64,000 nucleotides of DNA from a virus (IMGVR_UViG_3300028920_001037:1-64000), one strand, 5' to 3'; numbered from the stretch's first letter, positions 8,481 to 25,373 are shown. A program made the numbers and translations. Notes: generated by a model not told the origin, from the letters alone.

Positions 8481-8481
8481 A

Positions 8482-8799: not shown

Positions 8800-8811
8800 T
8801 TGGCCCTTCTT

Positions 8812-9354: not shown

Positions 9355-9355
9355 T

Positions 9356-10341: not shown

Positions 10342-10352
10342 TATTTAAATTT

Positions 10353-11390
10353 CTAAACATTATATATTGGACAATTCCTATGACAATCTAAAAGAGTCTT
10401 ACGAAACTTATTGACTCTTGGATGATTCCATATATCTCTAACAAAATCTTTGCATTCTAAAACATCAATACCATCAACCCATTCTCCAGAACCTTCGGCA
10501 AACGAACATGGAAAAAATTCAGCATTAACACCAATATACGAACTAAAACAACTTGATTCACAAGGTTCAGCCAACATTGCAAGTTCACCATAATCTTCTC
10601 GACCAGCAACTGCTTTGAGAAACTTATTAGCAGAACAACTGTCAAAACCAATCGGAACCTTTTTCTTAAATGCATAATCAATGAGTTTCTTAAACTCATC
10701 TTCTGTAACTGTATTGTATTTAGTTCCTCTACCCTTCTGTTTAAGTGAAAGGAATACAATAGCATTTAAACCTTTAATTCTTGGTTCATTCTTATAATCA
10801 TCAATAGTTTTAAACGCATCTTCATATGTTTCTTTACTTAACATATAATGAATATTAACCTGTTTCATTCCTCTATCGACTAGTTTCTTAACTGAATCAT
10901 AGCAAATATTATAGTTAGAATATCTTGATACAGCAACTGCTCCACATAGTTTGGCTAGCTTATCTGCTGTATCATCCGAAATATCAGCAACTGTTATATT
11001 AGGAACGATTTTCTTATACCTTGCATACTCCATCATCTTAAATAGTTCTGGATTAGATGTTGCTTGAGCGTCTGCACCAAAAGCTATTTGAGTTAATGTA
11101 TCTGGCATCTTATCCATTATCTTTTTGAATGTATCAAAAGACATATTAATTCCGTTAGGATTATTACTTTTGTAACAGAAAGGGCATAACTTTCCACCGG
11201 GTCCAGCACATTTAGTTGTAACTTCAATATCTAGAATCTCTGCACCGAATTCACAGAAGTCTGGATCTCTTTCCTTTGTACTTCCCCAACGAGCAAATAT
11301 ACCATTCTTCTTATTGAATACATAATTATATTCGGGTGAAGAAAGAATTTTATAAGTTTTATTTTCTTTAATCTCGTAAGTTGTTTCCAT
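10353..11390 (-). CDS. radical SAM protein with atypical CX7CX2C cluster and Cys-rich C-terminus
   Basis: About 345 residues from the ATG at 11390, which has GAGGAA at the right distance. An upstream ATG in the same frame lies deep in the neighbouring gene. The iron-sulphur motif is C61-x7-C69-x2-C72 (CAGPGGKLCPFC), longer than the standard CX3CX2C. The C-terminal third has further cysteines (CESSCF, FPCSF, CHRNC) like a SPASM or twitch domain that holds extra clusters. Such domains are typical of peptide- or protein-modifying radical SAM enzymes. It is encoded upstream of the PP-loop ATPase and the tagged proteins. The substrate is unknown. Confidence 0.82.
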   Translation of the reverse strand: METTYEIKENKTYKILSSPEYNYVFNKKNGIFARWGSTKERDPDFCEFGAEILDIEVTTKCAGPGGKLCPFCYKSNNPNGINMSFDTFKKIMDKMPDTLTQIAFGADAQATSNPELFKMMEYARYKKIVPNITVADISDDTADKLAKLCGAVAVSRYSNYNICYDSVKKLVDRGMKQVNIHYMLSKETYEDAFKTIDDYKNEPRIKGLNAIVFLSLKQKGRGTKYNTVTEDEFKKLIDYAFKKKVPIGFDSCSANKFLKAVAGREDYGELAMLAEPCESSCFSSYIGVNAEFFPCSFAEGSGEWVDGIDVLECKDFVRDIWNHPRVNKFRKTLLDCHRNCPIYNV

Positions 11391-11658
11391 ACTTAACTTC
11401 CTCATGTCTTGTATCATAAATTTCAAAATCTAACAGTTTATGTCTTGGTGTAGTAATTAACAGAAATAGACCATCATGGTCACCTTTCCAATTAATATCA
11501 ATGTCTATCCTAAGTAGTCCAAATCCTGTGTGCAATCGAAAACATTTCTTAGTGATAGTTATTTCACATCCGAAATTATAAACCGGATATTCATCCCAAT
11601 TTTTTTCCGAACATATTTCTACATGACAATTTTTACTAACTGGAAAATCAATATTCAT
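11368..11658 (-). CDS. hypothetical protein, beta-rich
   Basis: 96 residues. No family is recognised. Alternating hydrophobic residues (CEITITKKCFRLHTGFGLLRIDIDI) suggest beta strands. Its start overlaps the stop of PncB, and its 3' end overlaps the radical SAM gene by 23 bases, so it links the NAD gene to the radical SAM/tag operon. Confidence 0.7.
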   Translation of the reverse strand: MNIDFPVSKNCHVEICSEKNWDEYPVYNFGCEITITKKCFRLHTGFGLLRIDIDINWKGDHDGLFLLITTPRHKLLDFEIYDTRHEEVKYGNNLRD

Positions 11659-12905
11659 TAATAAACCGTCTCCACATCTGTTTGTTCAGGTTGAAAAATG
11701 CTCTGATACATTTGTATATAAGCTGGAGTTCCTGTTGCTTTCTTAATGTTATCGCTAAGCTTAACTGTTTGTTCTTCATTGACACCAGTTGCTTTAATAA
11801 CTATACTTAATGGTTTAATTCCAACAGAATTTGTAAGATCTGTTCCCCAACCGAAATATACTTTAAACTTATCTTTAAACTCTTCTTGTATTTTAACCAT
11901 CTTATCTACATTCAAACCATCCGAAAAGATAACCTTTTTCGTTTTAGTATCTATTCCGAACTTCTTATAATGTTCAATCATTTTATAACCGAACTTAATT
12001 GGGTCGCCCGAATCTTGTCTAACACCTACACATTTAGTTGCAAGTTCTTCGTCAAAGTCTTTAAGGAAAGCATTAGTTCCAAACGTATCTGTAAGCATGA
12101 TACTTAATGGTTCACCATAATAATCATACCATTCGTTCATAGCTTTCTTTTGGGCATCTAATAAACTCTTAGAATCAGGAAGAGTTAAACAATCTCCTGC
12201 ACTTCTTTCATACTCAATAGCTGCCCTAACCATAAAAAATTCATGAGCTTGTGTTCCTATTGGATTAAGACCAAGTTCTTTAGCCATTAAATAGTTCGAT
12301 GTTCCCAATATATTATTAGGACATTCATCTCTACAAATTTCAAGAATAGCTTTCTGCCAGTTACCCGAATGTCTTCGTCTTGTTCCAAAGTCTATAAACT
12401 TAATATCATGTTTTTTAATTATCTTTATTTTTTCTTGAAGCTTTCCAATAGCATCATTTCTCATTTTATAAATACAAGTATCGGTTAATCCTTCTAATAC
12501 CGATCTAGCAAACAGTTCGTTTATGATACCAAGAATCATTGTTTCATATAAAATCGAACATTGCCAACGATTAGTAAAATGCAAGTTGAGTTTATCATGT
12601 TGTAATTGATATGTAAATTCTGTATCATATTTTTGTCTTGCCAACATATTAATAAAATGGTCTTTATATTCTGGTTGGTTTTTTAAATATGTCAAATCAT
12701 CATAGCTAAAGCGCAGGCTTTTCATATGATTGATTTGTTCAACTAGTTCATCCATGTCAAGAAAATTGGCTAGTTTTATTGACATTGTTCTATTACTAAA
12801 CGAATAAGTAACTTTCTCATTTGGATACAGGTCATTAACAATTTGGCACATTGTTAGTTTATACTTATCCAAATCCAACATGCTATCAATAATAGGTTTA
12901 TCCAT
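11658..12905 (-). CDS. pncB: nicotinate phosphoribosyltransferase
   Basis: 415 residues, near the length of Escherichia coli PncB. It joins nicotinate to PRPP with ATP hydrolysis to give nicotinate mononucleotide. Visible family marks are DLDKYKLTM near the N-terminus, DFGTRRRHSG (about 172-181), GTSNYLMAKELGL and GTQAHE (His221, the histidine phosphorylated in PncB enzymes), RQDSGDP, and VIFSDGLN. These fit PncB rather than NAMPT: the aligned E. coli PncB blocks are collinear along the whole chain. AAAGGA precedes the start, and a strong early-type promoter lies at 12927-12955. With PncA, NadD and NadE it completes the deamidated NAD salvage route. Confidence 0.93.
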   Translation of the reverse strand: MDKPIIDSMLDLDKYKLTMCQIVNDLYPNEKVTYSFSNRTMSIKLANFLDMDELVEQINHMKSLRFSYDDLTYLKNQPEYKDHFINMLARQKYDTEFTYQLQHDKLNLHFTNRWQCSILYETMILGIINELFARSVLEGLTDTCIYKMRNDAIGKLQEKIKIIKKHDIKFIDFGTRRRHSGNWQKAILEICRDECPNNILGTSNYLMAKELGLNPIGTQAHEFFMVRAAIEYERSAGDCLTLPDSKSLLDAQKKAMNEWYDYYGEPLSIMLTDTFGTNAFLKDFDEELATKCVGVRQDSGDPIKFGYKMIEHYKKFGIDTKTKKVIFSDGLNVDKMVKIQEEFKDKFKVYFGWGTDLTNSVGIKPLSIVIKATGVNEEQTVKLSDNIKKATGTPAYIQMYQSIFQPEQTDVETVY

Positions 12906-12926
12906 ATAAAAATCCTTTCATATTAT

Positions 12927-12955
12927 AATATAATACAAAATGGGTTAAATGTCAA
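12927..12955 (-). promoter_or_regulatory. early-type promoter upstream of pncB
   Basis: Minus strand TTGACA (12955-12950), 17-base spacer, TATATT (12932-12927), followed by AAAGGA and the pncB ATG 22 bases on. It is one of eight sites with the same hexamers and exactly 17 bases between them. Confidence 0.7.
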
Positions 12956-12965
12956 GGTAAATATA

Positions 12966-13163
12966 TTAGTTACTTATTTTATTCTTTAGCCAGTAATCTC
13001 TAAATATAAAAAGCTTATCAGCAGCTTCATGTAGGTCTGCATCGGTAATTCCGTTGCCAACTTCGATTAATGTATCTAATACATCTTCAATAATTAGCCG
13101 GGCATCATCGTCTGTTAAATTCTTAACATCTTTATTTTTTTCTAAATCAAAAAAATATTTCAT
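12966..13163 (-). CDS. small acidic helical protein
   Basis: 65 residues, acidic (LTDDDARLIIEDVLDTLIEV), predicted helical, with a basic C-terminus. No family is recognised. It sits in a three-gene run (13599 down to 12966) with one-base spacing to its neighbour, upstream of the pncB promoter. Confidence 0.7.
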   Translation of the reverse strand: MKYFFDLEKNKDVKNLTDDDARLIIEDVLDTLIEVGNGITDADLHEAADKLFIFRDYWLKNKISN

Positions 13164-13424
13164 TTATTCTCCAATTGAGAGGTCAATTGTTTTATTAGGG
13201 TCATCAATATTAAAATCTTTAATTGGTGGGAACTGAATTAGTTGCAGACTTTCATCTTCAAAAAAGAAGTTTAGCTTTCCACTTCCATCACCATCAACGC
13301 TAATTTTAATATCACGACTAGCTCCCTGTCGGCCAAGACTTTGAATTGCAGAACATACTTTAAAGAATTCTGCAAGTTCAGTCTTACTACCCATTACAAT
13401 CATTTTAGCTTTAAGTACATCCAT
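13164..13424 (-). CDS. hypothetical protein
   Basis: 86 residues from the ATG at 13424, which has AGGAG four bases upstream. A longer frame to 13469 overlaps the upstream gene and lacks such a site. It includes a helix (KTELAEFFKVCSAIQSLGRQG) and a beta-like segment (RDIKISVDGDGSGKLNFFFEDE). No known family. Confidence 0.7.
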   Translation of the reverse strand: MDVLKAKMIVMGSKTELAEFFKVCSAIQSLGRQGASRDIKISVDGDGSGKLNFFFEDESLQLIQFPPIKDFNIDDPNKTIDLSIGE

Positions 13425-13425
13425 A

Positions 13426-13599
13426 TTATCTCCTAAAATATTTTCTATGTTCTTCTGGCACAAGTACATGAGAAATAGGTTTAACTATTTCCCCTGCTTC
13501 AGTTACTGGTATAGCAACTAATCTTTTAATATTATTAACAATTAAAAGTGTATATAGTTTATCATCCCTAGTATCTTTATATACTTTATATCTTTTCAT
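13426..13599 (-). CDS. small basic protein, possibly from a leaderless start
   Basis: 57 residues from the ATG at 13599 (MKRYKVYKDTRDDKLY). A start at 13617 would lie inside the promoter. The -10 hexamer of the early-type promoter ends at 13606, so transcription should begin at or very near this ATG, leaving no room for a Shine-Dalgarno site. Beta-rich with a basic end (EEHRKYFRR). Family unknown. Confidence 0.6.
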   Translation of the reverse strand: MKRYKVYKDTRDDKLYTLLIVNNIKRLVAIPVTEAGEIVKPISHVLVPEEHRKYFRR

Positions 13600-13605
13600 A
13601 TATAT

Positions 13606-13634
13606 AATATAATACATTATTATTTAAAAGTCAA
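13606..13634 (-). promoter_or_regulatory. early-type promoter upstream of the 13599 start
   Basis: Minus strand TTGACT (13634-13629), 17-base spacer, TATATT (13611-13606). It points at three small genes and is back to back with the plus-strand late-type site at 13644. Confidence 0.68.
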
Positions 13635-13643
13635 GTTAAAAAT

Positions 13644-13744
13644 TATAAATATATTAAAGTAGGGAGACAGATGGTTGCAACCATTTTCTTTGCCTGAACA
13701 AAGATTATCTCTACATTAACTTCAATCACCTTTCAGGAGGTATT
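13644..13744 (+). promoter_or_regulatory. late-type promoter and structured leader of the plus-strand nuclease
   Basis: TATAAATA at 13644-13651 on the plus strand is followed by a leader with two short hairpins: the palindrome ATGGTTGCAACCAT, then TCTTTG-6-CAAAGA. A strong CAGGAGG site follows just before the ATG at 13745. T4 homing nuclease genes also have late promoters and hairpins in their leaders. The promoter call is by pattern. Confidence 0.5.
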
Positions 13745-14650
13745 ATGTTTTCAACAGCGGATTTTATTAAAAGAGCTAAACTTATTCATGGTAATAAATA
13801 TGATTATTCTAAAACTAATCATATCAATTCAAAAACTAAACTTTGTATTATTTGTCCAAAACATAAAGAATTTTGGACTCTTCCACATAATCATTTAAAA
13901 GGTCAGGGTTGTCCAAATTGTTACAATGAAATTCGAGGAATCAAATCGAAAATATCTAAAAAATTTTTTATTGATTCTTGTAATAAAATTCATAATAACA
14001 AATATAAATATGATATAAATACTTTCAATGGAATGACTAGCCGTATTAAAATTAAATGCCCTATTCATGGTTTATTTTTTAAAATTGCATATGCTCATTT
14101 AACTTCTAAACAGGGTTGCCAAAAATGCTCTTATGAAAGCCAACTAAAACCTTTAAGCAGTTTTATAACCGAATCTAATAAAATTCATAATAATAAATAT
14201 AAATATAACAATTTTATTTATTTAGGAGCATTTAAAAAAAGTTATATAACATGTTATATACATGGCGATTTTTTACAAGATCCGCATTCACATTTAAAAG
14301 GCCATGGTTGCCCAAAATGTAATTCATCTAAAGGTGAATTAGTTGTTGAACAATATTTAAAAGAACATAATATTAAATTTAAACGTCAATATAAATTTAA
14401 AGATTGTAAAGATAAAAAACCTTTACCTTTTGATTTTTATTTGCCTAATTTTAATATATGTATCGAATATGATGGTGAACAACATTTTGGTAAATGGTTT
14501 ACAAAAATAAAAATAGATTTTAATATTATAAAATTACATGATAATATAAAAAACGAATATTGTAAAAATAATAATATTAAACTAATAAGAATACCTTATA
14601 CTAAAATAAATAAAATTAATACTATATTATCTAATATAATGAACTATTAA
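13745..14650 (+). CDS. homing-type endonuclease: zinc-finger repeats plus EDxHD/Vsr-like nuclease domain
   Basis: 301 residues on the plus strand, opposite to nearly every other gene. The first two-thirds hold three repeats of a 'CPKH...GCPKC'-type zinc module with I-H-x-N-K-Y-x-Y linkers (around residues 15, 88 and 147). These are DNA-binding modules common in free-standing phage nucleases. The C-terminus (DFYLPNFNICIEYDGEQHF...HDNIKNEYC...LIRIPY) is the Vsr-related EDxHD nuclease core with its D/E and H residues. It is very lysine/asparagine-rich. The 3' end overlaps the neighbouring gene by 20 bases. Likely a mobile element that cuts DNA to spread itself. Confidence 0.85.
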   Translation: MFSTADFIKRAKLIHGNKYDYSKTNHINSKTKLCIICPKHKEFWTLPHNHLKGQGCPNCYNEIRGIKSKISKKFFIDSCNKIHNNKYKYDINTFNGMTSRIKIKCPIHGLFFKIAYAHLTSKQGCQKCSYESQLKPLSSFITESNKIHNNKYKYNNFIYLGAFKKSYITCYIHGDFLQDPHSHLKGHGCPKCNSSKGELVVEQYLKEHNIKFKRQYKFKDCKDKKPLPFDFYLPNFNICIEYDGEQHFGKWFTKIKIDFNIIKLHDNIKNEYCKNNNIKLIRIPYTKINKINTILSNIMNY

Positions 14651-15107
14651 AAGCTTTATAAAATATATTAATAGCTTTTTGTTTTAACATATCATCAACA
14701 GTATCAAAATACCAACTTACCATATTACATATAAAAGGATGCTTTTTATATAGTTCATTATCGCTTATAAGAATAATAGGTTTCCTAAATTCATACGCAA
14801 AAGCTATTTCCATGATAGTTCCTAACATAGGTCTTTCAACACCAAAGTTTTCCATATAAGCTATAAACAAATCACATGTTTTAATAGCTATATAATCTTT
14901 ATCTAATATAGCTTTAGTTGGTACATTAGATGTTAATCCATCTGGTGATACATTATCTTCACCATTCAAAGGGTTTAAAAAACAAAGGTCACCATAATTT
15001 TTACCTGTATTTTTCCAGTTAGTATAATGTTTAATTACTTTATGGCGCCACTCTCTACATTTTTCAATATTTTTTCCATCGATTATACCCGCAAGATAAA
15101 CTTTCAT
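14631..15107 (-). CDS. nucleoside 2-deoxyribosyltransferase-like protein A
   Basis: 158 residues. It starts MKVYLAGIIDG, then has W-R-H near residue 22, KTCDLFIAYMENFGVERPMLGTIMEIAFA and KPIILISD. This is the nucleoside 2-deoxyribosyltransferase / SLOG-like fold pattern (Y-L-A-G, D-x-F-I-A, G-T-x-x-E-I). Enzymes of this group cleave the N-glycosidic bond of nucleosides or nucleotides. The glutamate in GTIMEI is the likely nucleophile. The next gene is a paralogue. Its 3' end overlaps the convergent nuclease gene by 20 bases. Confidence 0.78.
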   Translation of the reverse strand: MKVYLAGIIDGKNIEKCREWRHKVIKHYTNWKNTGKNYGDLCFLNPLNGEDNVSPDGLTSNVPTKAILDKDYIAIKTCDLFIAYMENFGVERPMLGTIMEIAFAYEFRKPIILISDNELYKKHPFICNMVSWYFDTVDDMLKQKAINIFYKAFNSSLY

Positions 15108-15109
15108 AA

Positions 15110-15634
15110 TTAAAACCTCCTTATATTAACATCGGCTCTTTCAATTGAAGCCTTTACTGTATCTTCTAATGTATTATGAATCTTTGGTATACTTACTTTA
15201 CCAAAACCTTTATCCAACCAAACAGCTTCCCACATAATATCTGAATAACTAATTCTATATGCATTATCAGGTCTACCATAAACAACCTTATATAGTTCTC
15301 TACCAATCCAATATCCCAGTTCCCAATTAGTTGTAAGTCCAATTAATTCTCTCGTTCTTGGAATCCAAAACAAAATACAATTGGCTCTTTTCAATCCATT
15401 AAACTCCCAAAGTGGAATCCAAGATTTGTTTTTATCTGATTCAGTTTTACTTACAAACTCGGGAACAACTAATGAACCGGTGAATCCTTGTCTTTCAAAC
15501 TCTTCAATAGCAGCGAATCTCCACGAAGTTAAATGGGTTTGGTTACCTCTAACAGTCGGCCCTGCCAAAAAAATAACCGGACCTTTTACATTTTTAACCT
15601 GTTCTTTTGATTGTTCATACCTGAATACATTCAT
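15110..15634 (-). CDS. nucleoside 2-deoxyribosyltransferase-like protein B
   Basis: 174 residues. VIFLAGPTVRG (residues 20-30), SWRFAAIEEF, VPEF, ILFWIPRTRELIGLTTNWELGYW match the second nucleoside deoxyribosyltransferase-like family (FLAGP-x-x-R, W-R, PR, T-x-x-E). The Glu in TNWELG is the candidate catalytic residue. It sits between IMPDH/GMPR and protein A, all tightly spaced, so the three probably act on purine nucleotides together. The exact substrate cannot be read from sequence. Confidence 0.8.
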   Translation of the reverse strand: MNVFRYEQSKEQVKNVKGPVIFLAGPTVRGNQTHLTSWRFAAIEEFERQGFTGSLVVPEFVSKTESDKNKSWIPLWEFNGLKRANCILFWIPRTRELIGLTTNWELGYWIGRELYKVVYGRPDNAYRISYSDIMWEAVWLDKGFGKVSIPKIHNTLEDTVKASIERADVNIRRF

Positions 15635-16743
15635 TATAACCTCACTCTTGTTTTACTTTCTTCCCAACCCTGATTAGTTATTTCAACAAATTTTACTTTC
15701 TTTCTAAACTCTTCCCAGTTTCTACAACCAGCATAATATGAAACAGCAGATTGTAAATTGCCAATAATGTTATTAACAATTTCTTTTGTTTCACCTGTAT
15801 ATGGGATTTGACCTGATTCACCTTCAATTGAAATCGCAGTCTTTTCACTTTTAAGTTTACTTGAAGCTTCCTTACTTGCCATTCCACTATATGAAACCCA
15901 TCTAATTTCTTTTGGATTCTCTGTTAAATCACCAGCTTCATCTAACTTATCTCCGTTAGAAAGACTAGTTGAGGCCAGCATCTTTCCCAACATACACATA
16001 TCTGCACCGGCAGCTATTGCTTTGCATATATCTCCCGGTGTTTCTATTCCACCATCGGCAATTAGATATGCTGTATCTTTAACTTTTGCACAATCAAAAA
16101 CAGAAGTCAATGTAGGTAATCCAAAACCAGTATTAGTTCTTGTTGTACAAATACTGCCACCACCAATACCAACTCTTATAAAGTTAGCACCAGCATCCTG
16201 TAGTCTTGCATATCCACTCCTTGTAGCAACATTTCCGGCCATGATATTTGTTGTTACCCAATTTGGACTGTTTTTTGAAATAAACTTAATAGTTTCAATG
16301 CTTGCTTTGGTATCTCCATTTGCAACATCAACAACAAATCCAAAATTATATCTATTGGCATTTTTATATTCTAATAATCTTTCAATCCATTTTCTCCATT
16401 TAGCAACTATTCCAACAGCCAAAAAAACTGTAGGTTGTTGTTCTTCTTTAAATTCACAATCTTCATAGAATTGGATTTGTTCATTAACATTTGCAAAACA
16501 TCTATCAATAGTTACTGGTAAATTAAATTCATGTGATAGACATTTAATCATTTTAACACTACAAACTTTATCCATTGGTGAATTAATAATTGGCGCCTTT
16601 ACTATAAAAGATTCACAGTTAGCTGGTAAGAAATCAGAACCATATTTATAGCTTATATCAGCATCCGTTAGATGATCTAAATTAGAATTTCTAGGAACCA
16701 ACAACACATCATTGTACGACAATACTCTACGAATGTCATTCAT
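15634..16743 (-). CDS. IMP dehydrogenase / GMP reductase family enzyme
   Basis: 369 residues, with no CBS domains. It shows the catalytic loop GIGGGSICTTR (nucleophile Cys199), preceded by the usual GNVATRSGYARLQDAGANFIRVG and followed by LIADGGIETPGDICKAIAAGADMCMLG. The C-terminal YSGMASKEA and PYTGE...NIIGNLQSAVSYYAG fit both IMPDH and GMPR. Length favours GMPR, but GESGQIPYTG and the C-terminal TNQGWEES look like IMPDH, so the direction (IMP to XMP with NAD+, or GMP to IMP with NADPH) is left open. Either links purine pools to NAD(P). Confidence 0.88.
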   Translation of the reverse strand: MNDIRRVLSYNDVLLVPRNSNLDHLTDADISYKYGSDFLPANCESFIVKAPIINSPMDKVCSVKMIKCLSHEFNLPVTIDRCFANVNEQIQFYEDCEFKEEQQPTVFLAVGIVAKWRKWIERLLEYKNANRYNFGFVVDVANGDTKASIETIKFISKNSPNWVTTNIMAGNVATRSGYARLQDAGANFIRVGIGGGSICTTRTNTGFGLPTLTSVFDCAKVKDTAYLIADGGIETPGDICKAIAAGADMCMLGKMLASTSLSNGDKLDEAGDLTENPKEIRWVSYSGMASKEASSKLKSEKTAISIEGESGQIPYTGETKEIVNNIIGNLQSAVSYYAGCRNWEEFRKKVKFVEITNQGWEESKTRVRL

Positions 16744-16745
16744 TT

Positions 16746-16940
16746 TTAATACCCCAATTCTCTTTCCGATATAAGTGTACGTGCATCATCAAACATTACA
16801 GCTAAACTATCATAAACTTCATAATCTTCATCAGAACAATCGTTCATAATTTCATGAACTTCATTTCTTTTATTTAAAAGATAACTTTGAACTTCCTGTT
16901 TAATTTTTTCAGCGTTTGTCATACTTTTATTTAAATCCAT
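16746..16940 (-). CDS. small acidic helical protein
   Basis: 64 residues from the ATG at 16940, chosen because GAAGGAG lies 9 bases upstream. A longer frame to 17012 runs far into the upstream gene. Acidic, helical (DEDYEVYDSLAVMFDDARTLI). It sits 2 bases from the IMPDH/GMPR start. Unknown function. Confidence 0.68.
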   Translation of the reverse strand: MDLNKSMTNAEKIKQEVQSYLLNKRNEVHEIMNDCSDEDYEVYDSLAVMFDDARTLISERELGY

Positions 16941-17250
16941 GTTTAATAACTCCTTCACCATGACAACATTTACAAGTATCATATCCATCAATATCATATG
17001 ATGATAACACACAATCCGTTGATGTTATTATTATTGTACCTAATGTGCAGTCTGAATTTCCAACATTGATAATTTCAAGTTCGCACCAACATATCCCACA
17101 ACCTTTAAGTTTAAGTAAAACAGATTCATCTATAAAACTACCTTTACCAGATTTTATTGAGTGTGAATATAACTTCCTATATTGTTTTGGTTTTATATTA
17201 TTACCATAACATATAGACGATACTTTAAGGTGTTGGTTCATTTCATTCAT
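16927..17250 (-). CDS. hypothetical protein with one zinc-knuckle half
   Basis: 107 residues. The C-terminus has CKCCHGEGVIKHG, like one CxxCxGxG unit of DnaJ-type zinc fingers. A CGICWCEL segment lies near residue 51, so a zinc site is possible. A beta-rich middle (LEIINVGNSDCTLGTIIITS) follows. No family is recognised. Confidence 0.7.
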   Translation of the reverse strand: MNEMNQHLKVSSICYGNNIKPKQYRKLYSHSIKSGKGSFIDESVLLKLKGCGICWCELEIINVGNSDCTLGTIIITSTDCVLSSYDIDGYDTCKCCHGEGVIKHGFK

Positions 17251-17252
17251 AA

Positions 17253-17657
17253 CTAACCTTTCTCATATGGAAAAACCACCCATTTTGTATTCATCTTAGC
17301 ATAGAAGTCCGGTTCAATTGGACTATCTTTATGTTTAAAAATGGTAGCTAACTTACATTTAGTCTTATCAAAGTTAAGTGAATTAATTGTTTCACCTGTA
17401 TCACAAATGTCATCGACTATCAACATATTATTACATAACCTACAGTTAAGAATCTCTACAAATTCTATACCTAATTGATGTGATATGATAGTTGCTGGAA
17501 ATAAACCTCCACGGGGTATGCCATATACGCAATCAAACTTACTTTTAGATTGTTTGATTTTCTTTATCAATCTATTAATATAATATATATATTCGTCCCA
17601 GTCAAGTAAAAATTTACCTTTACCTCGACTTAGACTTCTTTGTCTGGCATTTTTCAT
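17253..17657 (-). CDS. type I phosphoribosyltransferase
   Basis: 134 residues. The PRPP-binding motif is clear: NMLIVDDICDTGET (about residues 77-90). An upstream GIPRGGLFPATIISHQLG segment forms the hood-side loop seen in xanthine/guanine-type phosphoribosyltransferases. The protein is short, so the base-specificity region is small and the substrate cannot be named. Its place among purine and NAD genes suggests base salvage. The start overlaps the upstream gene by 38 bases. Confidence 0.8.
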   Translation of the reverse strand: MKNARQRSLSRGKGKFLLDWDEYIYYINRLIKKIKQSKSKFDCVYGIPRGGLFPATIISHQLGIEFVEILNCRLCNNMLIVDDICDTGETINSLNFDKTKCKLATIFKHKDSPIEPDFYAKMNTKWVVFPYEKG

Positions 17658-18393
17658 TTTGAACCTTTAAATTCAATATTTCATCAAAACTATCAGACCA
17701 ATTCTTTTTACAATAATCAGTTGTTACAAACCATTTAAGCCATCTACGATTAATTTCAGAAGTTTCAACACGAATATATTTAGGATTACGTTCTAATGTA
17801 TGTCCAACAAAACCATCTTTGTTTTCGTATTTCTTTCCATTTTTAAACATAAAATATTTCTGATGATTATTATATTCTTTTTTGGTTAGAAAATCTTCAT
17901 CAGTCCATTCACCATAAGTCTTTAAAAACTTTTTGCCGATATTAATTAACAATTCTTCATAAGTTCTACCATTAGCATCAACACCGTGATACAATTGCCA
18001 TTCTCTTATGTCATGATATTTTGATAAGTCTTTACCATGAAAAACTACAAAAGACATTTCGCCCCAGTATTCAACATGGTCAAACTTCCATTTCTCACCA
18101 TAAATAACTTCATAAGGAACATCAGCATATATTAATGCAGAGAAATCCTTTTCACCTGATTCTTTTAGTTCCTTATCAAAGTATTTTTTATACTTAGCAT
18201 AATTCTTTTTATTATAAGGAATATGAATTCCATCCTTACCAGCCCAATGTGAATAACCATGTTTACAAACTTCTTGTAGACTATGCCACAATAATTGCTC
18301 AACTGTATAAACAAGTGAACATGAAGTTGCTGGGTGCTGATTAAGCTTCGACAATATGTTATTATATTTTTTACATATCTTTCTAGTAATCAT
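17620..18393 (-). CDS. hypothetical protein, unknown family
   Basis: 257 residues. No domain is recognised. It is rich in aromatic and charged residues (WQLYHGVDANGRTYEELLINIGKKFLKTYGEW) and looks globular, with a lysine-rich C-terminus. It overlaps the genes on both sides by a few to 38 bases, so it is cotranscribed with the phosphoribosyltransferase. Confidence 0.72.
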   Translation of the reverse strand: MITRKICKKYNNILSKLNQHPATSCSLVYTVEQLLWHSLQEVCKHGYSHWAGKDGIHIPYNKKNYAKYKKYFDKELKESGEKDFSALIYADVPYEVIYGEKWKFDHVEYWGEMSFVVFHGKDLSKYHDIREWQLYHGVDANGRTYEELLINIGKKFLKTYGEWTDEDFLTKKEYNNHQKYFMFKNGKKYENKDGFVGHTLERNPKYIRVETSEINRRWLKWFVTTDYCKKNWSDSFDEILNLKVQNEKCQTKKSKSR

Positions 18394-18641
18394 ATTACAT
18401 CACCATTTTCCTTTATTTTTAGATCCTCATAATGTGCAAGTATTCTACGTTCAATTTCATTTGCACATTGTCTTAGTTCTCCAATGAAATTTTTATAGTT
18501 ATTATAACTTGGTTCAACAGTATCTTGACAGAATTTATATAGAACATAGTTAAGTTTACCATCAGGTTTGACACCAGTATGTATCATATTACGAACAACC
18601 ATATTCATTGTTGGTCTATCTTCTTTTTTAATATATGGCAT
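18390..18641 (-). CDS. hypothetical protein
   Basis: 83 residues from the ATG at 18641, with AAAGGAG at the proper distance. An apparent in-frame start at 18656 is a TTG that includes this Shine-Dalgarno site. Helical, with charged ends (CANEIERRILAHYEDLKIKENG). First gene after the promoter at 18661-18689. Confidence 0.72.
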   Translation of the reverse strand: MPYIKKEDRPTMNMVVRNMIHTGVKPDGKLNYVLYKFCQDTVEPSYNNYKNFIGELRQCANEIERRILAHYEDLKIKENGDVI

Positions 18642-18660
18642 ATTAACTCCTTTCAATTAT

Positions 18661-18689
18661 AATATAATATATTTCAATAGAAATGTCAA
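18661..18689 (-). promoter_or_regulatory. early-type promoter between the Nudix gene and the 18641 ORF
   Basis: Minus strand TTGACA (18689-18684), 17-base spacer, TATATT (18666-18661), then AAAGGAG and the ATG at 18641. The -35 box overlaps the stop of the Nudix gene. Confidence 0.7.
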
Positions 18690-19243
18690 GTGATATGATT
18701 TGTTCTAGCAAAATATTTCATTATCAATAATGCTTTAGCACCAAATTTTTTATCTTTTTGTAATAGTAATTCTTTAACTTCTCCTTGATTCAATAAGAAT
18801 TGTTCTATGTCTTCTGAAGCTTCTAAATTATTTATAGACAATTCTCCATTTGCTTTTACAAAAGCTATAGCAATACTTTCATCTGTAATACCAGGAGAAT
18901 TAAAAACAAATGGAGTTACCTCATAAATTAACTCAAGGTCTAATCCAGTTTCTTCTTTTAGTTCTCTCCTAATACAATCTTCAACGGGCTCGTTTTCATC
19001 AATGAGTCCAGCAGGGAATCCCCATTCATAATCTTTAATGGAAACCCTAAACTCTTTTATGATACATATCTTATTATTATCAGTTTCAGATTCAACAATA
19101 GGAATAATCATAACTGCTTTAATATTATTGGGTCTACTAACCCAACTCCATTCTTTATGATTACCTTCATTATCTTCATATTGAGTTGAATGAAGCTGAA
19201 GATATTTAGATACATTTCTGCAATCGTCTTTCCAAATTTTCAT
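18686..19243 (-). CDS. Nudix hydrolase, ADP-ribose pyrophosphatase-like
   Basis: 185 residues. The Nudix box is complete: it starts at G79 (GLIDENE), with REL at 93-95 and KEETGL ending near 101, giving the metal-binding REx2EE core. ITDESIAIAFV after the box fits ADP-ribose pyrophosphatases, which split ADP-ribose to AMP and ribose 5-phosphate. It is directly downstream of NadD (4-base overlap), and the NadD-Nudix pairing recalls fused NMN adenylyltransferase-Nudix proteins. It may recycle ADP-ribose left when NAD+ is cleaved. Substrate assignment is an inference. Confidence 0.85.
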   Translation of the reverse strand: MKIWKDDCRNVSKYLQLHSTQYEDNEGNHKEWSWVSRPNNIKAVMIIPIVESETDNNKICIIKEFRVSIKDYEWGFPAGLIDENEPVEDCIRRELKEETGLDLELIYEVTPFVFNSPGITDESIAIAFVKANGELSINNLEASEDIEQFLLNQGEVKELLLQKDKKFGAKALLIMKYFARTNHIT

Positions 19244-19830
19244 CGGTATAATCCATTCTGTTTAATATATTTTATAACATTTTTATACATAATTTTTTGT
19301 TGTAAGTCATTATCATTGTTAGCAATAGCTTCTCTTGCTTGTGTGGATGAATAATCTTTTTTGTGTTTTTTAAATACAACAGTAGATGGATCCCATTTCA
19401 ATTCTTCATCATTATAACCTTCACGTTGAAAAACTATAAAAGGAACAGTCTTTAAAAGATCTTCCCACTTATACCATTTATCAATTTCAATTGCACAATC
19501 CATTCCAATAATTACATAAAAGTTTATATGCTTATAAGATTCCATTAAACTTCTTATTGTATTATAAAATTTACCATCAGACTTCTTTTGAATTTCATGT
19601 AAACAAACCAACATATTATCTTTATGTTTTATTGAACGATAAATCATTTCTATCCTATGAAAAGAATCAGTAGATATTTTTCCAAGGTTATGAGAGAAAC
19701 ATGGCATAAACCAAACTTGATCAACCAAATCATATGATAAAACTGTTTCTGCAACTTCAACATGACTCTTAGTACAAGGGTTAAAAGATCCACCAAAAAT
19801 ACCTACACGTATCTTTTGTTTATTCTTCAT
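19240..19830 (-). CDS. nadD: nicotinate-nucleotide adenylyltransferase
   Basis: 196 residues. It has the nucleotidyl-transfer motif GGSFNP...H (residues 13-18, His23) and the second motif SSTQAR (161-166). VWFMPCFSHN and FYVIIGMDCAIEIDKWYKWEDLL line up with NadD, which adenylates nicotinate mononucleotide to deamido-NAD. Acceptance of NMN as well cannot be excluded. It overlaps NadE by 11 bases and the Nudix gene by 4, forming a NadE-NadD-Nudix transcript. Confidence 0.88.
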   Translation of the reverse strand: MKNKQKIRVGIFGGSFNPCTKSHVEVAETVLSYDLVDQVWFMPCFSHNLGKISTDSFHRIEMIYRSIKHKDNMLVCLHEIQKKSDGKFYNTIRSLMESYKHINFYVIIGMDCAIEIDKWYKWEDLLKTVPFIVFQREGYNDEELKWDPSTVVFKKHKKDYSSTQAREAIANNDNDLQQKIMYKNVIKYIKQNGLYR

Positions 19831-20713
19831 TGAAAATATCTTTCCTATTAATTACAATAGGCCAGTTTCTTTTAAAATGTGTTGCTTTATATCTTTTGAT
19901 AACTGGATGATTACTATATAGTTCTCTAAAATTAACAAAGCTTTCATAGTCTTCAAGTCTATTCTTATACTTCAACCAATCATCCCAAGTAAAACTATCT
20001 TGGTCTTTTGTTAACCAAGTTTTTAAAAGCAGATCAACTTCTTCATATGATTTTGCACCAAGTTGATCTAAATCTGAATTAGAAACACCAAGACCGTCTG
20101 TTGGATTTGCTTCAACACAAATTCCTAAAGATGTTATTTTGTCTTGATCTTTTAAACAACTATATTCATTAACAACAATCCATCTTGCAACTTCATATAC
20201 CTCTGTTTTCCAAAGCTGTTGAATCATTCCATAATCTCCAACATCACCACAAAGCGTCCAGAAACCTAAATAATATTCAGTTAAGTTATCAGTTGAAAGA
20301 ACTATTCCTTTTTTTACTTGTGCAAGATTATAAAGATAAATCATTCTTAATCTGGCTTTAATGTTACCTCTTCTTATCTTGTCGGCTTTAGAATCCCACT
20401 CGACACAATCATGTAAATCATCTGTCAATTGATAATAAGAATGTATAAGACTTTGATCTTCCAAGAAATCGTGACAAAAGGATTCTCCAACTAATTTTGC
20501 TCTTTCAATTTCGTCTTGTTTGTTTGACTCAATTGGAAGACTTCTACCAATAAGAGGAATATCCAATTCATCACAAACAGGTCTTGCTAATGCACAACAT
20601 AAAGCTGAATCAATTCCACCAGAAACTCCAATGACTAAAGATTTTATATCATATTTAATAATATAATCCTTTAATTCTTTTTGGATATTTTTAACAACCA
20701 GTTCACAATTCAT
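19820..20713 (-). CDS. nadE: NAD synthetase, ammonia-dependent type
   Basis: 297 residues. The ATP-pyrophosphatase loop SGGIDSA (31-37), RRGNIKARLRMIYLYNLA, STDNLTEYYLGFWTLCGDVGDYGMI and KTEVYEVARWI are the hallmarks of NadE, which amidates deamido-NAD to NAD+. There is no N-terminal glutaminase domain, so it should use free ammonia, as the 275-residue E. coli enzyme does. The C-terminal HFKRNWPIVINR fits the family end. First gene of the nadE-nadD-Nudix run. Confidence 0.92.
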   Translation of the reverse strand: MNCELVVKNIQKELKDYIIKYDIKSLVIGVSGGIDSALCCALARPVCDELDIPLIGRSLPIESNKQDEIERAKLVGESFCHDFLEDQSLIHSYYQLTDDLHDCVEWDSKADKIRRGNIKARLRMIYLYNLAQVKKGIVLSTDNLTEYYLGFWTLCGDVGDYGMIQQLWKTEVYEVARWIVVNEYSCLKDQDKITSLGICVEANPTDGLGVSNSDLDQLGAKSYEEVDLLLKTWLTKDQDSFTWDDWLKYKNRLEDYESFVNFRELYSNHPVIKRYKATHFKRNWPIVINRKDIFNEE

Positions 20714-20722
20714 ATTAATTTC

Positions 20723-20926
20723 TTACCAATCTTCTGAATGTGTTAAATCAAATTCTTCACCACAAGCACACTTAATAGTTTTAATACAACCAAGTCCTGT
20801 GGGTGTAAAACAATATGTAAATCTTCCACCAATTGCTCCCTGTTTCATTGGGTCTGCAAACGGGCAAGTTTTATTATGTTCTTCTTTCCAATCTTGCAGT
20901 TCTTTATTATCCATCCGAAATTGCAT
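20723..20926 (-). CDS. small Cys-containing protein
   Basis: 67 residues, with AAGGA upstream of the ATG. It has CPFADP, CFTPTGLGC and CACGEEF, five cysteines in all, so a small zinc ribbon is likely. No family is recognised. It sits 9 bases upstream of nadE. Confidence 0.7.
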   Translation of the reverse strand: MQFRMDNKELQDWKEEHNKTCPFADPMKQGAIGGRFTYCFTPTGLGCIKTIKCACGEEFDLTHSEDW

Positions 20927-20935
20927 ATTAGTTCC

Positions 20936-21247
20936 TTATGGCAATATGATTCCACTATCGGTTTTCTTTGCAGCTATTGGTGGTTGACCACCCTGAATAA
21001 CCTGAACTACTTGCTGTACATTATGATGAAGAACATTCATATTATTTGCAATGACATTAACCATCTGAGCTAATCCACCCATATCATTACCAATGAAATC
21101 AATTGCCTCAAGCAATTCACCTTTAGTAACAGTTTCATCGGGATTCTCACTAAGCTTCTTATGGAAAGCTTCATATGCTTTTTTATGTTCTTCCATTGCT
21201 TTTTTCATTTCTTCTTCAGTCATCTGTTTCTGTTCTTGTTTACTCAT
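20936..21247 (-). CDS. helical coiled-coil protein
   Basis: 103 residues. The first half is a charged helix rich in K/E/M/Q (EEEMKKAMEEHKKAYEAFHKKL). The second half has a regular hydrophobic helix (AQMVNVIANNMNVLHHNVQQVVQVI) consistent with a coiled coil. Possibly an oligomeric scaffold. Unknown function. The start overlaps the stop of the phosphoesterase gene. Confidence 0.7.
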   Translation of the reverse strand: MSKQEQKQMTEEEMKKAMEEHKKAYEAFHKKLSENPDETVTKGELLEAIDFIGNDMGGLAQMVNVIANNMNVLHHNVQQVVQVIQGGQPPIAAKKTDSGIILP

Positions 21248-21765
21248 AGTTTGCTCCTAACTAGATTAAAATTATCTGGTAATGTATTCATTTTATCTTT
21301 TACTTGTTCCCAAGAATATGGGTAAAAATTATTAGTATCTACTCCACAATCAAAACTTTTACCCCAAGGTTCTAACATTCCATGCGAGTGGCCATAAAGC
21401 GAAAAAGCATTATAATGAGATTTGTGCCATATCCTCATAGAACAATGAGATAAAGTTATATTTATTCCTTCTATTTTGGTATTTAATAATTGATTATATG
21501 AAGCAAATAAATGTTTACAGTTTTTAGTATTTTTATCATGAGAACCTAATATTAAATGAATATTGCCATTTAATCTTCTTAAATGTTTTTGAACGTCACC
21601 AAAAGCAAAATCACCTAAATGATATACTATATCATTTTTTCTGACTACAGAATTCCAATTTGTAATAATAACCTCATCGTGTTCTTCTATAGAACTAAAC
21701 GGTCTATTACAATATTTAATTATATTTCGGTGTGAAAAGTGCGTATCGGCTGTAAAATATATCAT
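21244..21765 (-). CDS. calcineurin-like metallophosphoesterase
   Basis: 173 residues from the ATG at 21765, which overlaps the GIY-YIG stop as ATGA. The metal ligands are visible: TADTHFSH, HLGDFAFG, GSHDK (usually GNHD, so the Asn of the catalytic motif is Ser here), SHCSM and YGHSHG. The family hydrolyses phosphomono- or diesters. The Asn-to-Ser change could lower or alter activity. The insertion of a GIY-YIG gene right at its 5' end may have replaced its native leader. Confidence 0.82.
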   Translation of the reverse strand: MIYFTADTHFSHRNIIKYCNRPFSSIEEHDEVIITNWNSVVRKNDIVYHLGDFAFGDVQKHLRRLNGNIHLILGSHDKNTKNCKHLFASYNQLLNTKIEGINITLSHCSMRIWHKSHYNAFSLYGHSHGMLEPWGKSFDCGVDTNNFYPYSWEQVKDKMNTLPDNFNLVRSKL

Positions 21766-22379
21766 AATTGTTTTCTCAATTTCCACAGGCTAATATTTAA
21801 TTTTCTACTGGCTTCTCTTAGCGATCCATATTCTATACCGTTTATAACTATTTGTATTGATTTTGGGTGTTCTTTTCCGGGTTTAAATGACGTTTTTAAT
21901 TTTTTTCCATATAAATAATGTTCTTTTCCTCTATGATAATATCTATTAGCTATTTTCTTTTTTGAATCTTTTGAATGATGTTTTCCATAAAAGGGATTAT
22001 TTTTTCCTAAAATATTTGGTCTTGGCCCCTTTAAGTTTTCAATATGTTTTTTTGATTTTGGTTTCCCTAATAAAGCCATTTTAATTTTTTGTTTATGAGT
22101 TTCTGATAAACTATCAACTCCATAACTTCCCAATCTCAAATTATAACCAATATTTGGATTAATAGATTTTAATTTTTTAATCCAATAAATTTCTCTTTCA
22201 TCAACTCCAGATATACAATGTTCAAGTATCTCTCTTTTAAAATTTTCTTTACCATATTTTTTAATATCTTCATTCAATTTAGATCCAGAACCTAAATATC
22301 CATCATCTGCACTACTATAATGTTTACCTACATAAATCTTTCCATTAACTAGATTTGTTGTTTTGTAAATAATACTCAT
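21762..22379 (-). CDS. GIY-YIG homing endonuclease with NUMOD repeats
   Basis: 205 residues. The N-terminal catalytic module has IIYKTTNL and KIYVGKH (the GIY-YIG pair, here I-I-Y and I-Y-V-G) plus R in FKREILE and E in DEREIYW. The middle has NUMOD3-like basic repeats (ETHKQKIKMALLGK, SKDSKKKIANRY). The C-terminus (VINGIEYGSLREASRKLNISLWKLRKQL) is a NUMOD1-type helix-turn-helix. This is the usual build of free-standing phage homing nucleases. It abuts the metallophosphoesterase gene (ATGA overlap) and has a structured leader. Confidence 0.9.
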   Translation of the reverse strand: MSIIYKTTNLVNGKIYVGKHYSSADDGYLGSGSKLNEDIKKYGKENFKREILEHCISGVDEREIYWIKKLKSINPNIGYNLRLGSYGVDSLSETHKQKIKMALLGKPKSKKHIENLKGPRPNILGKNNPFYGKHHSKDSKKKIANRYYHRGKEHYLYGKKLKTSFKPGKEHPKSIQIVINGIEYGSLREASRKLNISLWKLRKQL

Positions 22380-22485
22380 AAGATACCCCCGATTAAGGTT
22401 TAAGTTGGAGATACCGGATAATCCTAAATCGGATAGGAAAGGTGATCAAACCCTGTCTCCAAGTATCCTATAAGTATTTATTATT
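22380..22485 (-). promoter_or_regulatory. structured leader of the GIY-YIG gene
   Basis: 106 bases without an ORF. The RNA would contain TTGGAGA able to pair with TCTCCAA about 45 bases on, and CCGATT able to pair with AATCGG, which is joined to the GGGGG ribosome-binding site. Translation may thus be masked by structure, as reported for T4 homing-nuclease leaders. A late-like AATAAATA lies at its upstream edge (one base off the octamer). Confidence 0.45.
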
Positions 22486-22779
22486 TTAAACCAATCCGAA
22501 GTGAACCAATAATTCATCATCAATCTTTCTATCTGGATTTCTATCTTTAATTATTTTAAAACTGGAAAATTCTGCTTCTTTTAATTCATGTGTTATATAT
22601 TTATCACATATATGTAACAGTCGAGTACTAATTCTACCTGGTCGTGAATTATAAAGATCTGATGGACATACAAAAATTAATTCTTCATCGTTTTCACGAG
22701 CTTCTTCTCTTAATTTATATAAAGCTAAATCAAAATCTTTTACTAAAATATTTTTTAAATCATCCCAAGTGACTATCAT
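22486..22779 (-). CDS. hypothetical protein
   Basis: 97 residues. Unknown family, mixed helix/strand, acidic-basic pattern (LREEARENDEELIFVCPSDLYN). It follows the lipoprotein gene with one base between them. Confidence 0.7.
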   Translation of the reverse strand: MIVTWDDLKNILVKDFDLALYKLREEARENDEELIFVCPSDLYNSRPGRISTRLLHICDKYITHELKEAEFSSFKIIKDRNPDRKIDDELLVHFGLV

Positions 22780-22780
22780 A

Positions 22781-23074
22781 TTAACGACAACGACATATAC
22801 TATAACATTTACTAGAAGTTTCCCAACCTAAATATCTACACCCATTACTATAAGTATGAATAAAAGCCGAGTCACCAATACCAACATCAACTAAAGTATA
22901 TAGTATAAAAAATCTCTTATCAGTCTTAATCTGCATTTTAACAGGCTCATTCCATGAAGTCGGAACAACACTAGCATCTTTTATTATTCCAACATATTCC
23001 TTATTAACCATTATGGGTTGTTCAGAACAACCAATCAAAAACAATGCTACAACTAACAATATCAATTTCTTCAT
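22781..23074 (-). CDS. small lipoprotein
   Basis: 97 residues. A clean lipoprotein signal: MKK, a hydrophobic core LILLVVALFLI and the lipobox IGC with Cys16, followed by Ser/Glu. The mature part is beta-rich and ends with a cysteine cluster (CRYLGW...CYSICRCR). Phage lipoproteins in T5-like and other phages can block superinfection by masking receptors. That role is possible here but not shown. The Ser-Glu after Cys leaves the outer membrane as a plausible destination if the host is Gram-negative. Confidence 0.8.
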   Translation of the reverse strand: MKKLILLVVALFLIGCSEQPIMVNKEYVGIIKDASVVPTSWNEPVKMQIKTDKRFFILYTLVDVGIGDSAFIHTYSNGCRYLGWETSSKCYSICRCR

Positions 23075-23076
23075 AA

Positions 23077-23529
23077 TTACCTCAATCCATAGAAATAGAG
23101 TAAAGCCGCCCAGCCAGAGGGCAACATATTTGGAGCTTCTTTTAATTCTTTACCATATTTAATTGCCATTTCTAACATAAACTTTGCATGAAAGAAAGCT
23201 TCCAACAAAGGTCTTGTATTCTTTTCCCAATGTTTGCCATGAGAAAGATGCTTATGGTTGGTTCCGTTTTTAAATATTTCCATAAAGGTTTCATTAAACT
23301 TTGTATCTTTAGGAGCTAAAGATTTTAACACATCAACAATCTTAATAGTTAGGTTTTGAATGTAATAGACCTTAGCTGAATAATGATAAAACCTATAGAT
23401 ACTATCTTCATAATTCCAATGACTGTTAATATCATCCCATAAATTATCTAAATCAGATAATCTATTTTGGATATTAGTTAACAGTTCTTGATTGCGTTTG
23501 GCTAATTCTTCAAAGTAGTTATTGTTCAT
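23077..23529 (-). CDS. hypothetical helical protein
   Basis: 150 residues from the ATG at 23529, directly after the pncA stop. A frame five codons longer overlaps pncA. It is helical, with a conserved-looking segment HWNYEDSIYRFYHYSAKVYYIQ and LSHGKHWEKNTRPLLEAFFHAKFML. No function is recognised. Confidence 0.7.
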   Translation of the reverse strand: MNNNYFEELAKRNQELLTNIQNRLSDLDNLWDDINSHWNYEDSIYRFYHYSAKVYYIQNLTIKIVDVLKSLAPKDTKFNETFMEIFKNGTNHKHLSHGKHWEKNTRPLLEAFFHAKFMLEMAIKYGKELKEAPNMLPSGWAALLYFYGLR

Positions 23530-23531
23530 TA

Positions 23532-24071
23532 TTAAAAAACACATTTAACAAAGTGGCAACCGGCATCTTTCATTTCTTGAATAGATGTTTCTGTATTTTT
23601 TTCATCAACACCAGCGATGGCATTCTCAAAAATATATACATCAATATTTCTTTTACGGAGTCCAAGTGCCGCGGCCTTAATACATACATCTGCGGCTACT
23701 CCTGCCAGCCATACTTCTGTAACCTTCTTATCTTTCAACCACTTATCAATATCTTTGTTGCCAAGTTTTCCATCGAATACATCATAAGTTTTCTTATCAA
23801 AGTAAACAGCCTTTTTAGTTTTAGTCTTAGCTTCTGGAATAAGTTCAGCGCCTGGCGTATCTGTGATACAATGAGGTGGAAATGTTTTAAATTCGGGGTC
23901 AGAACTATCATGTTGGTCTTGTGTAAAGAAAATATCACATTTGCGCTGTACTGCAAAACTAACAAGGTTCTTTATATTTTTCTTAATGCTTGTCGCATTA
24001 GGAACATATAAATTTCCATTTTCATTCATAAAGTCATTCTGCACGTCTATGAAACCAAACACTCTGTTCAT
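23532..24071 (-). CDS. pncA: nicotinamidase
   Basis: 179 residues from the ATG at 24071. A TTG-started frame to 24086 includes the Shine-Dalgarno AAAGGGG, so the shorter start is chosen. It has catalytic Asp9 (FIDVQNDF), a candidate catalytic Lys (about residues 86-94) and Cys130 (GVAADVCIKAA). Metal ligands are Asp52 and His54 (TQDQHDSSDPEF), with FPPHC. The hydrolase turns nicotinamide into nicotinate, the substrate for PncB. Other isochorismatase-family reactions are possible, but DVQNDF, FPPHC and GVAADVC together favour nicotinamidase. Confidence 0.85.
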   Translation of the reverse strand: MNRVFGFIDVQNDFMNENGNLYVPNATSIKKNIKNLVSFAVQRKCDIFFTQDQHDSSDPEFKTFPPHCITDTPGAELIPEAKTKTKKAVYFDKKTYDVFDGKLGNKDIDKWLKDKKVTEVWLAGVAADVCIKAAALGLRKRNIDVYIFENAIAGVDEKNTETSIQEMKDAGCHFVKCVF

Positions 24072-24106
24072 ACGAACCCCTTTCAAATTGTTATATTTCT
24101 ATATAT

Positions 24107-24533: not shown

Positions 24534-25373
24534 TTACATTCCTATCATTTTAAAGAAATCTTCCTCACTAATGATTCTAATTCCTAGTTGATTTGCTTTC
24601 TTAGTCTTTGAAGATGTTGAACTAGGATCTGCTTGAATTAATCCAGATACACCCTTCTTAACCGTCTTTTCACAAGAACCACCGTTCTCATAAACCAATT
24701 CCTGCAACATGTTTCTTGTGTACCTGTTTCCGTTTTCATCGATTCTCTGAACTGCACCAGTAAATACAAAAACTTCTCCATCCAATTGACTTGAACTCAC
24801 TTCAACCTCCTTAGGTTTTTCAACACCTTTTATTGTGATAACTTCCAATAATTTTTTAATTGTAGTTTTCTTTTTGGACAATCCATAAACAATTTCTTCT
24901 GCAACTCTATCACCAATTCCTTTAATACGGACAAGTTCTTCCTCACCTATATTTAACATTTTATCCAGAGTATCAATTCCATTTTCAATCAATAATTCTG
25001 CTCTAGACTTTGAAAAATTAGGAATGTTTAATCCATCAATGAAGGTTGCTAAATCTATTTCTTTCTTGTCATTAAAGTTCTTAATAATCTTCTTAGCTGA
25101 CTTAGTTCCCATGCCCTGAAGATTTGCTATTCTGTTTTCATCAAGTCGATAGAAATCTGAAGGGTCATAGACTATTTCAGCATTTTCAAACAATTCAATA
25201 GTCTTTATACTTATTGCATCAATGTCAAGTGCATCAACCCATTTCTGAAGATTGCCTATCCTTAATCCTTTACATTCAGTATTTTCACACATTAAATAAG
25301 TTCCGTCGTTATTTAATTCTTCATTACACATTGGACACCATAAAGGCGGTTTGAAATATTTTTTATTCTCCAT
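24534..25373 (-). CDS. ligA: NAD-dependent DNA ligase, C-terminal part (zinc finger, HhH, BRCT)
   Basis: 279 residues. It contains the parts of bacterial LigA that follow the OB domain: a four-Cys zinc finger (CPMC...CENTEC, residues about 12-33), the helix-hairpin-helix region (LQGMGTKSAKKI, RIKGIGDRVAEEI) and a C-terminal BRCT domain (GEVFVFTGAVQ...GGSCEKTVKKGVSGLI). In E. coli LigA the same order starts right after the point where the separate N-terminal ORF (25626-26753) ends. The two are probably one functional ligase made of two chains. Between them lies a small zinc-finger ORF. Confidence 0.88.
   Translation of the reverse strand: MENKKYFKPPLWCPMCNEELNNDGTYLMCENTECKGLRIGNLQKWVDALDIDAISIKTIELFENAEIVYDPSDFYRLDENRIANLQGMGTKSAKKIIKNFNDKKEIDLATFIDGLNIPNFSKSRAELLIENGIDTLDKMLNIGEEELVRIKGIGDRVAEEIVYGLSKKKTTIKKLLEVITIKGVEKPKEVEVSSSQLDGEVFVFTGAVQRIDENGNRYTRNMLQELVYENGGSCEKTVKKGVSGLIQADPSSTSSKTKKANQLGIRIISEEDFFKMIGM

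Follow-up and report, generated by a model that had tools for sequence, protein, structure and literature searches.

Depletion of nicotinamide adenine dinucleotide (NAD+) is a major anti-phage strategy in which defensive NADases split the cofactor into nicotinamide and ADP-ribose, and two routes are known by which phages rebuild it. In NARP1 (Adps and Namat), ADP-ribose is pyrophosphorylated and nicotinamide is added; in NARP2 and the KVP40-type systems, a phage-encoded NAMPT (NadV) and a nicotinamide mononucleotide (NMN) adenylyltransferase (NadM/NatV or NadR) turn nicotinamide and phosphoribosyl pyrophosphate (PRPP) into NAD+. Here we analyze IMGVR_UViG_3300028920_001037:1-64000 (hereafter the window), which comprises the first 64 kb of a linear, 75,062-base IMG/VR virus record and encodes PncA, PncB, NadD, and NadE, that is, the same four enzyme families as bacterial Preiss–Handler salvage, presumably with identical reactions. 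We conclude that this gene set is a real, recurrent, and under-described form of phage NAD+ salvage. The source record is probably a fragment; we consider it to be of phage origin because of its IMG/VR listing, its phage-type genes, and its relative G002 (124 kb), the record itself giving no Terminase_6N match in a profile search that placed this family over the cut-off in G002 and seven other module records.

An earlier note, made from the sequence of the window, had claimed that all four enzymes are present with intact motifs, and this proved correct: The open reading frames (ORFs) are uninterrupted at the coordinates given in Table 1, and the family cut-offs are passed. PncB scores 343.5 bits against TIGR01514 (cut-off 269.6) and 409 against NF003704 (379), its solved relatives are NAPRTases without exception, and GTRRR as well as H221/E222, which we take to correspond to the phosphorylated histidine of NAPRTases, are invariant in the alignment. 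NadD passes TIGR00482 narrowly (115.9 bits vs. 112.45) and matches the NadD structure 1kam with an E-value of 9e-25; it retains the motifs GGSFNPxTxxH and SSTxxR, and a threonine replaces the first histidine of HxGH, an accepted variant in its superfamily. NadE reaches 119.3 bits against TIGR00552 (cut-off 63.7) and retains SGGIDS and STDNxTE. PncA scores 114 bits against PF00857 (cut-off 27) and 58.5 against the NCBI equivalog model for PncA, short of the 174 required there; its closest solved relatives are the nicotinamidases/pyrazinamidases 1ilw/1im5 (E 2e-20), accompanied by the nicotinamidase 3pl1. Its residues D9-K87-C130 and D52/H54/H67, presumably the catalytic triad and the metal positions as judged from an alignment with the Pyrococcus enzyme, are conserved in 87–93 of 93 aligned phage PncA rows; an alternative open TTG start of pncA lies at 24086. 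All NAD genes of the window are encoded on the minus strand amid mostly minus-strand neighbors, with computed overlaps of 4 nt between nadD and the adjoining Nudix hydrolase gene and of 11 nt between nadD and nadE. As far as family assignment is concerned, chance or misannotation is excluded by the cut-offs, the retained motifs, and the recurrence of the families relative to a control set, and we rejected it on these grounds.

At the level of these family assignments, the deamidated (Preiss–Handler) character of the route, likewise asserted in the earlier note, is borne out, as is its distinctness from NARP1 and NARP2. The sole phrog_448/PF04095 match in the window record, which would mark a NARP2-type NAMPT, is PncB itself, an NAPRTase by NCBIfam, so that the record holds no second NAPRTase/NAMPT-family gene; a PRPP-synthetase-like gene as in NARP1 was not found either, PF13793 matching nowhere in the 75 kb of a record that may be a fragment. 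Membership in either known pathway was rejected for these reasons. Across 28 records (the window record, 26 others with a PncB-family gene, and the relative G002, which has none) a separate NAMPT-type gene is absent, each phrog_448 match being the PncB of the record, and only two contain a PRPP-synthetase-family gene. About 33% of jumbo phages, in comparison, possess NadV (PMC9503650), which suggests, the two samples compared being different ones, that the deamidated route replaces NARP1/NARP2 in its carriers. Both the module and NARP2/KVP40-type systems are made up of phage genes and share a link to Nudix proteins, some module relatives using a NadM–Nudix fusion; they differ in that PncA, PncB, and NadE are employed in four steps via deamidated intermediates instead of NAMPT and an NMN adenylyltransferase. 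With NARP1, the module shares the proposed purpose and the starting NADase products, whereas ADP-ribose would be broken down by the Nudix enzyme.

The four-enzyme set is not a one-off but recurs in many unrelated large phages. A tblastn search of annotated phages identified PncB in 13 records, part of them bacterial contamination: Short Listeria, Enterococcus, and Salmonella records were left out under this suspicion, and the Acinetobacter "phage MD-2021a" (CAKLQH020000008.1, L014) was rejected as support because its contig looks bacterial-chromosomal (phoB/phoR/psd). Two carriers are cultured. Sinorhizobium phage Phosso has NadE-PncB-Nudix-NMNAT-PncA within 6 kb, with a deoxyribosyltransferase in the same run and its PncA annotated as "hydrolase"; Agrobacterium phage Atu_ph07 has PncA-NMNAT-Nudix-PncB within 6 kb and a glutamine-type NadE elsewhere in the genome. 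These families are also found in the huge metagenomic phages LR756500, LR756501, and LR756511, the last giving no Pfam PncA match, in the faecal phage MT835470, and in the IMG/VR contig G001. Excluding the window, six of the seven fully searched phage records contain all four families, the adenylyltransferase being counted by the broad PF01467, which does not settle its substrate in each record.

Because single-sequence scans of IMG/VR were almost empty, alignment-based scans were required to recover relatives; these yielded 265 confirmed PncB relatives, the best 80 of which were retained, and 41 NadE relatives. Family presence was scored within 10 kb using profiles trained on the recruited loci, and 80 viral loci recruited via a gene of the window phage that belongs to the poly(A)-polymerase family served as controls, a conservative choice since part of their seed was taken from NAD loci. 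PncB, NadE, and PncA occur jointly in 40 of the 80 PncB-recruited loci, and strict NadD in 17. NadE is present in 51/80 versus 10/80 controls (Fisher p 2e-11) and PncA in 54/80 versus 7/80 (p 5e-15), p values that are optimistic because near-identical contigs were kept in both sets; PncB itself appears in six control loci. One of the control loci (L221) carries the module. When all ORFs of the NAD loci were clustered blind to annotation, PncB, NadE, PncA, and Nudix emerged as the four commonest families, followed by NadD. The fourth-ranking Nudix family is present in 36/120 NAD loci versus 5/80 controls (p 3e-5), in 25 of these 36 no more than 500 nt away from a NAD gene on the same strand, and adenylyltransferase and Nudix (NadM–Nudix) form a single fused protein in three loci (L092, L096, L221). 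Since this family is enriched beside NAD genes, the Nudix gene of the window is a probable fifth member of the module; the ADP-ribose-type enzyme announced in the earlier note is indeed there, with NUDT5/NudE as nearest families and its gene overlapping nadD.

In bacteria, loci with a related NadE contain PncB in only 4/80 cases and PncA in 4/80, and hence no cluster; unlike these bacterial Preiss–Handler genes, the phage set forms a gene neighborhood, which points to its assembly by phages. Phylogenetically, NadE of phages divides into several lineages, glutamine-type enzymes among them, which suggests that the set was put together on more than one occasion; for the window NadE the tree gave no firm sister group. 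Its nearest relatives are Bacteroidota enzymes (about 50% identical), from which alone a Bacteroidales host might be deduced. If the host does belong to this order, most such hosts are without PncB: Among 198 Bacteroidales genomes, any NAPRTase-family gene is present in 62 and a strong PncB-type match in about 46.

How would such a module operate? PncA would convert nicotinamide to nicotinate, which PncB would combine with PRPP to nicotinate mononucleotide (NaMN); NadD would adenylylate NaMN to nicotinate adenine dinucleotide (NaAD), and NadE would amidate the latter to NAD+, so that rebuilding would consume nicotinamide, PRPP, ATP, and ammonia. The Nudix enzyme would cleave ADP-ribose to AMP and ribose-5-phosphate, which the host PRPP synthetase would turn into PRPP and thus feed back to PncB. 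In sum, both fragments of the NAD+ cut by host NADases (TIR, SIR2, and similar) would be reused, and the module would also feed NAD+ users of the phage, namely LigA and an IMPDH-family enzyme. That the phage module rebuilds NAD+ after cleavage by host NADases and supplies these users is, in our assessment, somewhat more probable than not. Observed are intact genes of the right families that repeatedly lie clustered together in unrelated phages without a separate NAMPT-type gene; what the enzymes do, which substrate the Nudix protein takes, and that the set was selected for counter-defence, we infer from sequence. This role is plausible because Nudix and PncA match what the NADase products ADP-ribose and nicotinamide require, and restoration of NAD+ after NADase defence is the leading candidate explanation. 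More tentatively, PncA, PncB, NadD/NadM, NadE, and Nudix could constitute a third widespread NAD+ pathway of large phages, which would be deamidated, draw on both NADase products, and replace NARP1/NARP2; we regard this as quite possible.

Several points weigh against rebuilding of NAD+ as the purpose. Many hosts possess NadD/NadE and often PncA/PncB of their own, and the phage genes might only raise flux. Nicotinamide inhibits NADases, so its conversion to nicotinate removes an inhibitor and could oppose the rescue. The four genes span 12.4 kb and hence do not form one tight operon, and the closest relative, G002, whose NadE is 58% identical, has NadE with PncB/PncA not found in a record that may be incomplete. 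Finally, activity, expression, defence role, and Nudix substrate are predictions. Supply of nucleotide synthesis or of the ligase, or complementation of a host without PncB, would fit the gene set too.

The first of these alternatives, which we judge unlikely yet the strongest competitor, holds that the set raises NAD+ for replication in general (DNA ligase, IMPDH family, redox), defence being irrelevant. It draws on the surroundings of the NAD genes: An NAD+-dependent ligase and an IMPDH/GMP reductase-family enzyme lie within the same 15-kb region, the IMPDH family occurs in nine NAD loci versus no control locus, and further nucleotide enzymes (a phosphoribosyltransferase and two deoxyribosyltransferase-like proteins) are interspersed among the genes. 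The IMPDH/GMP reductase-family enzyme is a possible NAD+ user, and its association with the module is tentative. Of the ligase, the earlier note was right as to its presence, but it is coded by two ORFs: The break falls at the boundary of the OB fold and the zinc finger, the halves are separated by ~250 nt that hold a small zinc-finger-like ORF and gave no Rfam match, and both align to one single ORF in L108/L109. A general supply of NAD+ leaves unexplained, however, why Nudix is a recurrent partner and why PncA/PncB, and with them nicotinamide recycling, were retained over de novo genes.

Table 1. Metabolic genes of the window discussed in the text, in order of position.
Feature	Position	Strand	Basis
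pncB, nicotinate phosphoribosyltransferase, 415 aa	11658-12905	-	TIGR01514, NF003704, NAPRTase structures, motifs
IMPDH/GMP reductase-family enzyme, 369 aa	15634-16743	-	PF00478
Nudix hydrolase, ADP-ribose/ADP-sugar pyrophosphatase-like, 185 aa	18686-19243	-	ADP-sugar hydrolases NUDT5/NudE as nearest families
nadD, nicotinate-nucleotide adenylyltransferase, 196 aa	19240-19830	-	TIGR00482, structure 1kam
nadE, ammonia-type NAD+ synthetase, 297 aa, glutaminase domain absent	19820-20713	-	TIGR00552
pncA, nicotinamidase, 179 aa from ATG at 24071	23532-24071	-	PF00857, structures, triad
Split NAD+-dependent DNA ligase, C-terminal half (Zn finger, HhH, BRCT)	24534-25373	-	Pfam HHH/BRCT
Split NAD+-dependent DNA ligase, N-terminal half (adenylation, OB)	25626-26753	-	sequence

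Alternatively, the phage might provide a step of nicotinamide recovery to hosts that often are without nicotinate salvage. The Bacteroidota affinity of NadE and the scarcity of NAPRTase-family genes in Bacteroidales described above speak in its favor; yet other carriers infect Sinorhizobium and Agrobacterium, and the set includes NadD and NadE, which are nearly universal in hosts. We therefore consider complementation improbable as the explanation, and it would be compatible with counter-defence rather than an exclusive alternative to it.

Marginally less probable still is an amidated shortcut in which the last two steps are swapped: NadE would act on NaMN as an NMN synthetase, and the adenylyltransferase would act on NMN. 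Among solved structures, NadE matches 3fiu best, which we take to be the enzyme of Francisella. There, NadE works as an NMN synthetase with NadM as its partner (PMC3376133), and PncB/NadE are paired with a NadM–Nudix fusion in the three phage loci mentioned above. Other top structure matches of NadE score almost equal to 3fiu, however, and its partner in the window belongs to the NadD family, which as a rule prefers NaMN. Separate acquisition of the four enzymes as passengers of no joint pathway, as their non-contiguous arrangement in the window, the other bacterial roles of each family, and the apparently lone NadE of G002 might suggest, is very improbable given that the same families cluster strongly relative to the control, in many gene orders and in several lineages.

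Further genes lie in or near the metabolic region. A calcineurin-like phosphoesterase (21244-21786, minus strand) has relatives in about 15 other NAD loci and may be just a common phage gene, its family being found in seven control loci as well. The region is interrupted by what is probably a homing endonuclease of the GIY-YIG type and by a second nuclease, likely mobile too (21762-22379, minus strand, and 13745-14650, plus strand). At 9706-11426 (minus strand), a QueC-like and a radical SAM protein are encoded side by side; in L008 and L069/L070, relatives of the radical SAM gene have NAD genes nearby. Elsewhere in the window, six small adjacent genes (6891-9709, minus strand) encode otherwise different proteins with the common leader MKIRxGFVSNSSSSSF, which is also found in L069/L070, L074, and L180. 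An N-terminus like MRFKEYYLxE is carried by at least 12 window proteins (28251-55203, minus strand), including a poly(A)-polymerase/CCA-type enzyme but not the NAD gene products, and recurs at L002:12202-14940; it resembles the leader that targets internal proteins of T4 to the capsid, by analogy with which its bearers may be packaged and injected. A 1694-aa protein (33990-39074, minus strand), which consists mostly of serine runs interrupted by glutamate and adjoins a large glycosyltransferase cluster, is possibly a glycosylated fibre. Searches of the window for tRNAs and known RNA elements (Rfam) returned neither.

A survey of viral NAD+ systems and a jumbo phage review cover NadV, NadM, and NadR only (PMC9503650, PMC7824862). 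In the open-licence literature, a scope outside which the Nature 2024 NARP paper falls, we found no paper that treats the deamidated route as counter-defence; to this extent the statement of the earlier note, which knew of no description of it in this role, stands. A wastewater study of 2023 reports four nicotinamide-to-NAD+ genes in the huge phage 5-SewaE, where the part of the text accessible to us leaves the enzymes unnamed and describes the set only as auxiliary metabolic potential, with no counter-defence interpretation (PMC10747093). On Atu_ph07, which like Phosso has these families, the published paper is silent as to the pathway, its pncB appearing merely as a polymerase chain reaction marker (PMC6102473). 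Rheinheimera phage Barba19A has an "NAPRTase" and a PRPP synthetase (PMC6715854), a gene pair that looks like NARP1 and not like this module.

If our interpretation is true, the module would be a third means by which phages escape several NADase defences at once, in carriers of which some (Phosso, Atu_ph07) are culturable. Surveys limited to NadV, NadM, and NadR overlook phages with the deamidated module, and its inclusion would complete them.

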